From contig NC_088177.1 in the NCBI RefSeq assembly GCF_028769735.1, forward strand, positions 27,808,099 through 27,872,098: DNA of 64,000 bases. The letters run 5' to 3'. Under the pieces are notes generated by a model that saw only the letters and a program-made list of their open reading frames with translations, was not told where the DNA came from and did not search any database. This stretch comes from Zonotrichia leucophrys gambelii. Lineage: Eukaryota; Chordata; Aves; Passeriformes; Passerellidae. A program made the position numbers and the translations under genes. How positions within the stretch are numbered: the stretch's first letter is position 1; every line of letters begins with the position of its first letter. Positions 32,450 to 33,026 of the stretch are shown here, piece by piece.

Positions 32450-33026
32450 TCTTTGAGGTTCAGCAATTAGAAATGTGCAATCACTTGGAATTTTATAGTT
32501 CTGACTGCTTCAAGTGGTTGTACAATATTCTTAACTTTTGATGCAGAGACATTAAAACTACCATGTACAGGTGTGGTAATACCTCACTTTCCTGGAAGGT
32601 AATAAAATATCATGTTAATCAGCGGTCAGTCTCTTTGTGATATGGCAGAGCCACACTGTTATGACAAATGGCTTTAAACAAGTTCAGTGCTATAATTATG
32701 GAAAAGGTTACATTGTTCTACAATTATCCTTTTAATCAATCTTGCAAGATAATCATCCTGCCGAAAAATCTGTTTCTCAATACCAATTTCATTATCTAGG
32801 TGATTCTCATCACTAATCATTAGAGTGTGATTCACTACATTCTTAACAACTCCTGTTTTAACTTTAAATGGGTGATTAGACTCAATATACAGGATATTAC
32901 CTGCACTATCGTCTTTATAATACATTCTCCTTCCCAACTGTCAGGCCATCTCTCCACTAATAAATGTAAAAAAGCATTTCTTATTAACATCCTTTTCCAT
33001 AGTAAATCATATTCAAATGAACATTA
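32450..33026 (-). pseudogene. Decayed Penelope-like retroelement: RT C-terminus, linker, GIY-YIG start
   Basis: Reading the minus strand from about 33006 downward gives, in order, the signature blocks of Penelope-like elements (PLEs). First is FTMEKDVNKKCFFTFISGEM, then a stop, then QLGRRMYYKDD, the 'kFTmE...flD...lg..vyrK' stretch that ends the RT. Next is YIESNHPFKVKTGVVKNVVN (about 32889-32830), the very typical 'SNHP..vK..v...lvnRa' block. DDYLARLIKRII follows (the 'ngYP..lI.r.i' block), then ALPYHKETDR at 32651-32622 (like 'lPYv.g.Ser'). HDILLPSRKVRYY comes at 32614-32576 (like 'i...f.P.rKlr'). Last is YKIPSDC...LIAEPQR at 32500-32450, which matches the GIY-YIG entry 'YkIPC.Cgk.YIGeTgR' with C to S and G to A changes. 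The longest open part is 87 codons (32937-32674). Stops at both ends and two or more frameshifts make it non-functional. The catalytic YVDD region upstream was not found. PLEs are retrotransposons that combine an RT with a GIY-YIG endonuclease. Confidence 0.72.

Follow-up and report, generated by a model that had tools for sequence, protein, structure and literature searches.

The locus lies on C9, on the minus strand of a window of 64,000 nucleotides (the whole stretch of DNA that was analysed), and carries a frame-broken protein fossil with the following features.

32725..33006, minus strand: protein fossil derived from a Penelope-like element (PLE), running from the reverse transcriptase (RT) end into the linker; frameshift-aware profile alignment, 38.3-39.5 bits
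32677..32940, minus strand: linker stretch of 88 codons without a stop in the PLE frame; PLE profile E = 0.0035 and hhalign
32941..32943, minus strand: in-frame stop directly upstream of the 88-codon stretch
32622..32648, minus strand: LPYHKETDR, a possible remnant of the LPY block, in another frame; co-linear chain
32450..32497, minus strand: YKIPSDC..LIAEPQR, a possible remnant of the GIY-YIG start; 16.8 bits and spacing

Reading from 33006 down, FTMEKDVNKKC is followed by a frameshift, FLHLLVERWPD, a 5-nt insertion and GRRMYYKDDSAGNILYIESNHPFKVKTGVVKNVVNHTLMISDENHLDNEIGIEKQIFRQDDYLARLIKRI; the frameshift and the insertion are both upstream of the open part. The fossil contains RT-end blocks (FTMEKD.., FLH.. 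and GRRMYYKD) and linker blocks (SNHPFKVKTGVVKN... and DDYLARLIKRI). From 33006 to 32725 it spans profile columns 365-461, with two short column gaps in addition to the single frameshift and the insertion, and the recognisable PLE DNA amounts to about 94 codons. An earlier sequence-only reading had quoted these and further blocks, all of which are present on the minus strand where it had placed them. The stop-free part it had given as 87 codons is likewise there, and counts 88 (32940-32677).

The Penelope-like identity was examined with a profile made from the 120 proteins listed as best among 630 that a bait search retrieved at E ≤ 1e-5 from 2020 candidates. These best 120 carry PF26215, which we take to be a helix-turn-helix-type domain, and many carry RVT_1 too, while GIY-YIG occurs in one (P0048). 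Across 3615 window pieces without stops (at least 12 residues, six frames), the profile gave a single match at E ≤ 10, the 88-codon piece, with E = 0.0035. A frameshift-tolerant scan reached 38.3 bits at 33006 to 32725; elsewhere in the window it rose no higher than 21.0 bits, and 30 single strands of 64 kb generated by an order-2 Markov model peaked at 18.3-25.4 bits. By hhalign, the locus and its relatives, combined in one profile, aligned in register with the RT end and linker of 18 PLEs over 73 columns, with a probability of 87% and E = 3.7e-6, a value that holds for one comparison in which four of the nine rows of the locus-plus-eight-relatives profile were retained. The RT-end signature FTME..LPFLD..VYRK.THTD.YL..SHHP is found over columns 365-461, frameshift included, and the linker PF26215 follows the RT, as seen over the 73 hhalign columns and in the PF26215 assignment of seven of the eight relatives. 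These three scores are not fully independent because they draw on common PLE proteins.

Protein searches of the whole genome (1.12 Gb, 3789 contigs) gave a mixed outcome. With PLE P0119 the window locus ranked first at E = 0.066, and in the searches with P0124 and P0125 it was not listed. A locus judged to be a chance hit, L007, reached tblastn E = 0.07, close to that of the window, and that E-value alone therefore decides nothing. Its modest size and its equal at L007, the failure of two of the three PLE queries and the weakness of the downstream blocks are what a chance resemblance, with no PLE present, would account for; yet the three scores agree on place and register, through partly shared PLE proteins, and the PLE linker domain in seven of eight relatives was computed by others, which leaves a chance origin extremely improbable. 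The decayed Penelope-like element proposed from the letters alone is thus upheld by the profile, frameshift-aware and profile-profile tests and by one of the three whole-genome protein searches. In a Pfam copy that lacks PF26215, the 88-residue piece had no match at E ≤ 10, and seven relatives gave two hits, both below threshold and to unrelated families (E 0.09 and 0.12). Sequence searches of the PDB returned nitrogenase chains only (E 0.75-1.3), and 0 of 18 candidates scored in a padded search for full-length relatives.

Upstream of the fossil, no RT catalytic core was recognised by profile score in 34600-33007, where the best RT-core score was 16.9 bits, against 12.3-17.4 bits for six shuffles of the upstream stretch of L003, the locus of a second copy described below. 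The core may have been lost, may be too decayed or may never have been inserted. Because it is unrecognised, the locus is classed as a PLE-derived fragment and not as a working PLE.

Downstream, YKIPSDC scored 16.8 bits, a value reached by 4 of 120 random sequences, and lies 228 nt from the linker, where 216 nt is expected (profile columns 461 to 533). A P.RKVR block exists as a string between LPY..ETDR and YKIPSDC..LIAEPQR. For the downstream co-linear chain, 14 of 200 random sequences and 9 of 200 random places in the window scored at least as high. Taken alone, the three downstream blocks are weak; with the spacing helping, a GIY-YIG part appears plausible, and it is placed no higher because the controls reach both the YKIPSDC and the chain scores. 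The six blocks in order that had been described here consequently divide: the first four form one statistically supported match (33006-32725), and the last three are suggestive. The same division applies to the profile search for PLE RT and GIY-YIG that the sequence-only reading had suggested, in which the RT end and linker matched (E = 0.0035) and the GIY-YIG start is suggestive only. PLEs with RVT_1 and PF26215, some with GIY-YIG (for example P0009, P0048 and P0119), show the same RT-end and linker order and register, whereas the window holds about 94 frame-broken codons, no recognised RT core and a suggestive GIY-YIG part.

At the DNA level the genome search yielded one further copy, at C3 74787734-74787930, 73% identical over the reported match. 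This copy corresponds to L003:3600-4019, is frameshifted and has a PLE profile score of 25.2 bits at KYLPFESNHPFNVVR, a score taken without a shuffle control. A separate Penelope-like relic lies on C21 (L008 1672-1794, near 1388936-1389250; tblastn E = 0.14 with P0124), with 44.2 bits at FLDVNI..SLYRRGAYNDAYLNYKSGH, against 14.2-17.9 bits for eight shuffles of L008. A search of the same genome with the 88-residue piece recovered only the piece itself. PLE relic loci number at least three (C9, which is the window, C3 and C21), a lower bound because only the best candidates were scored.

The C21 relic outscores that of the window; its RT end reads FLDV..SLYRR..YLNYKSGH, and several stops fall in the stretch. 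Six other hits, on C11 (L006), C2 (L007), C32 (L009), C1 (L010), C4 (L011) and C13 (L012), were judged to be chance: the 1.1-1.4 kb scored around each gave profile values of 14.6-16.7 bits, the null being the eight L008 shuffles at 14.2-17.9.

Across the window, a tRNA scan found none and no Rfam family reached its gathering score. Of its 15 open frames of 100 codons or longer, 10 were searched against Pfam, with nothing above the curated cut-off and two sub-threshold matches (E ~0.07). The 3' repeat pattern of CR1 matched once at two mismatches, with 0.37 matches expected by chance, and scans for viral and bacterial contigs gave nothing useful. The window is possibly gene-poor or intronic.

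The eight close relatives of the 88-residue piece (P0001-P0008) are 75-99% identical to it, and seven carry PF26215 as a precomputed assignment, the domain that PLE proteins also carry, many beside RVT_1. P0001-P0005 hold the frame over about 83-88 codons, and P0001 and P0002 read through the place of the window stop at 32943-32941. These relatives are predicted proteins only, so that broken relatives are invisible in the database, and their predicted starts fall at differing places. Comparison of P0005 with the window shows 5 of 39 residues differing in MISDENHLDNE..QCNL, the middle-to-late part, and 18 of 49 elsewhere; pooled replacement counts show no clear pattern like the less variable part of P0005.

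Both copies in the genome bear on whether the open stretch reflects constraint or neutral decay. Within it, the C9 and C3 copies differ at 66 of 256 sites, which corresponds to about 0.32 substitutions per site (Jukes-Cantor), or about 0.16 per copy. Mismatches are spread over codon positions 1, 2 and 3 as 27/84, 18/86 and 21/86, with no excess at the third position. Base-by-base alignment covers 81 codons, of which 37 differ in a way that alters the amino acid and 6 differ silently, and neither copy has a stop in that register, C3 indels aside. Across 32925-32726 the C3 copy has five gaps and the window copy 0, the latter being gapped once at each edge, by 1 and 3 nt. With all five gaps in C3, the window copy is taken to be better preserved (sign test ~0.06).

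An 88-codon piece that lacks stops in the PLE frame, relatives still open at 75-99% identity, and a C3 copy that holds all five gaps inside the open part could together indicate that the host kept the linker piece for coding, either as a small exon or as a small protein. The length of the stretch, however, is at chance for its composition: the window has 28 stretches that run for 88 codons or more without a stop, against 23-43 (mean 32.5) in 20 random sequences. An open frame is also likely under simulated neutral decay, in which all 88 codons stay open in 33% of cases at d = 0.16 and in 14% at 0.35, starting from the window's own open stretch and with no indels, which would lower openness. 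Replacements match or exceed neutral ones in severity, with a mean BLOSUM62 of -0.60 over 47 replacements in the eight relatives (49 minus two first-residue artefacts) against -0.23 to -0.05 under neutrality (kappa 2 to 6); the codon-position pattern is flat, and the relatives' predicted proteins begin at different places. Such coding use is highly improbable.

The remark that the open part is long for an old neutral relic is therefore not borne out, the length being at the composition expectation and a neutral copy staying open in about a third of the indel-free simulations. The hint of exaptation attached to it falls as well, since the length is as expected, the replacements are not conservative and the differences from C3 are even across codon positions. 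Exaptation argued from open length was rejected because the composition expectation and the neutral simulation explain that length. Neither of the two proxies examined, the replacements and the codon positions, hints at purifying selection on the protein. The open relatives count little towards constraint because a protein database shows open frames only, and the openness of the piece is itself a biased observation, the piece having been noticed for being open. That the host lineage retained the piece as a small unit of either kind, coding or regulatory, is considered because the window copy and its relatives are open where the C3 paralogue gathered frameshifts, and is quite improbable.

PLE relics have been recorded in several related contexts. 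A table for the spotted owl gives 169 PLE relics covering 35,110 nt, with a mean of about 208 nt (PMC5629816), an account of falcons mentions a very small number of Penelope relics (PMC9214253), and a table for the sand martin gives 0 Penelope (PMC13365828). Two Penelope insertions stand among 32 markers in crocodilians (PMC4316615). That PLEs are rare in birds, as the sequence-only reading had held, agrees with what these sources tabulate, namely few relics, yet relics already on record (PMC5629816, PMC9214253); those of owl and falcons are, as far as these sources describe them, likewise short and scattered. Among the paper titles listed in literature searches, none names an exapted PLE in birds, which is no proof of absence.

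Human PLE protein fossils, as reported, are likewise old fossils found by sensitive translated search, and are shared with other tetrapods in conserved regions (PMC9004415). Together with UCON13, which is listed as Penelope (PMC5753468), they set a precedent for a further reading, in which the DNA may have been kept as a non-coding regulatory element like some of the human fossils. The human examples, by that report, sit in deeply conserved regions (PMC9004415, which also names the turtle or crocodilian PLE consensus sequences Penelope-2_CPB and SAT-928_Crp), whereas nothing at the window locus points to conservation, and its relatives differ at many residues. A regulatory role for the fragment would be very unlikely.

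The locus is very probably what is left of a Penelope-like retroelement, a fossil fragment that has drifted since losing function. The fragment is genuine but faint and ordinary in kind, and its open stretch is without sign of use within the limits of the data. The source element would have encoded an RT and a PF26215 linker, probably with a GIY-YIG endonuclease as well, and presumably inserted by target-primed reverse transcription, the known mechanism of the Penelope-like family. Function would have been lost after insertion, with subsequent drift leaving the frameshift, the insertion and the stops around the 88-codon piece, which would lack stops by chance and do nothing detectable as a protein. 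With an avian neutral rate of ~2e-9 per site and year, a divergence of 0.16 suggests an age of about 80 million years, of the order of tens of millions, if the host is a bird and both copies are neutral and similar in age.

Where repeat DNA is old and AT-rich, an open stretch does not support a reading of exaptation without orthologous DNA. PLE relics persist as isolated, hard-to-see protein fossils in one assembled genome, and, given orthologous sequences, they could be used to date the extinction of the family in the lineage.
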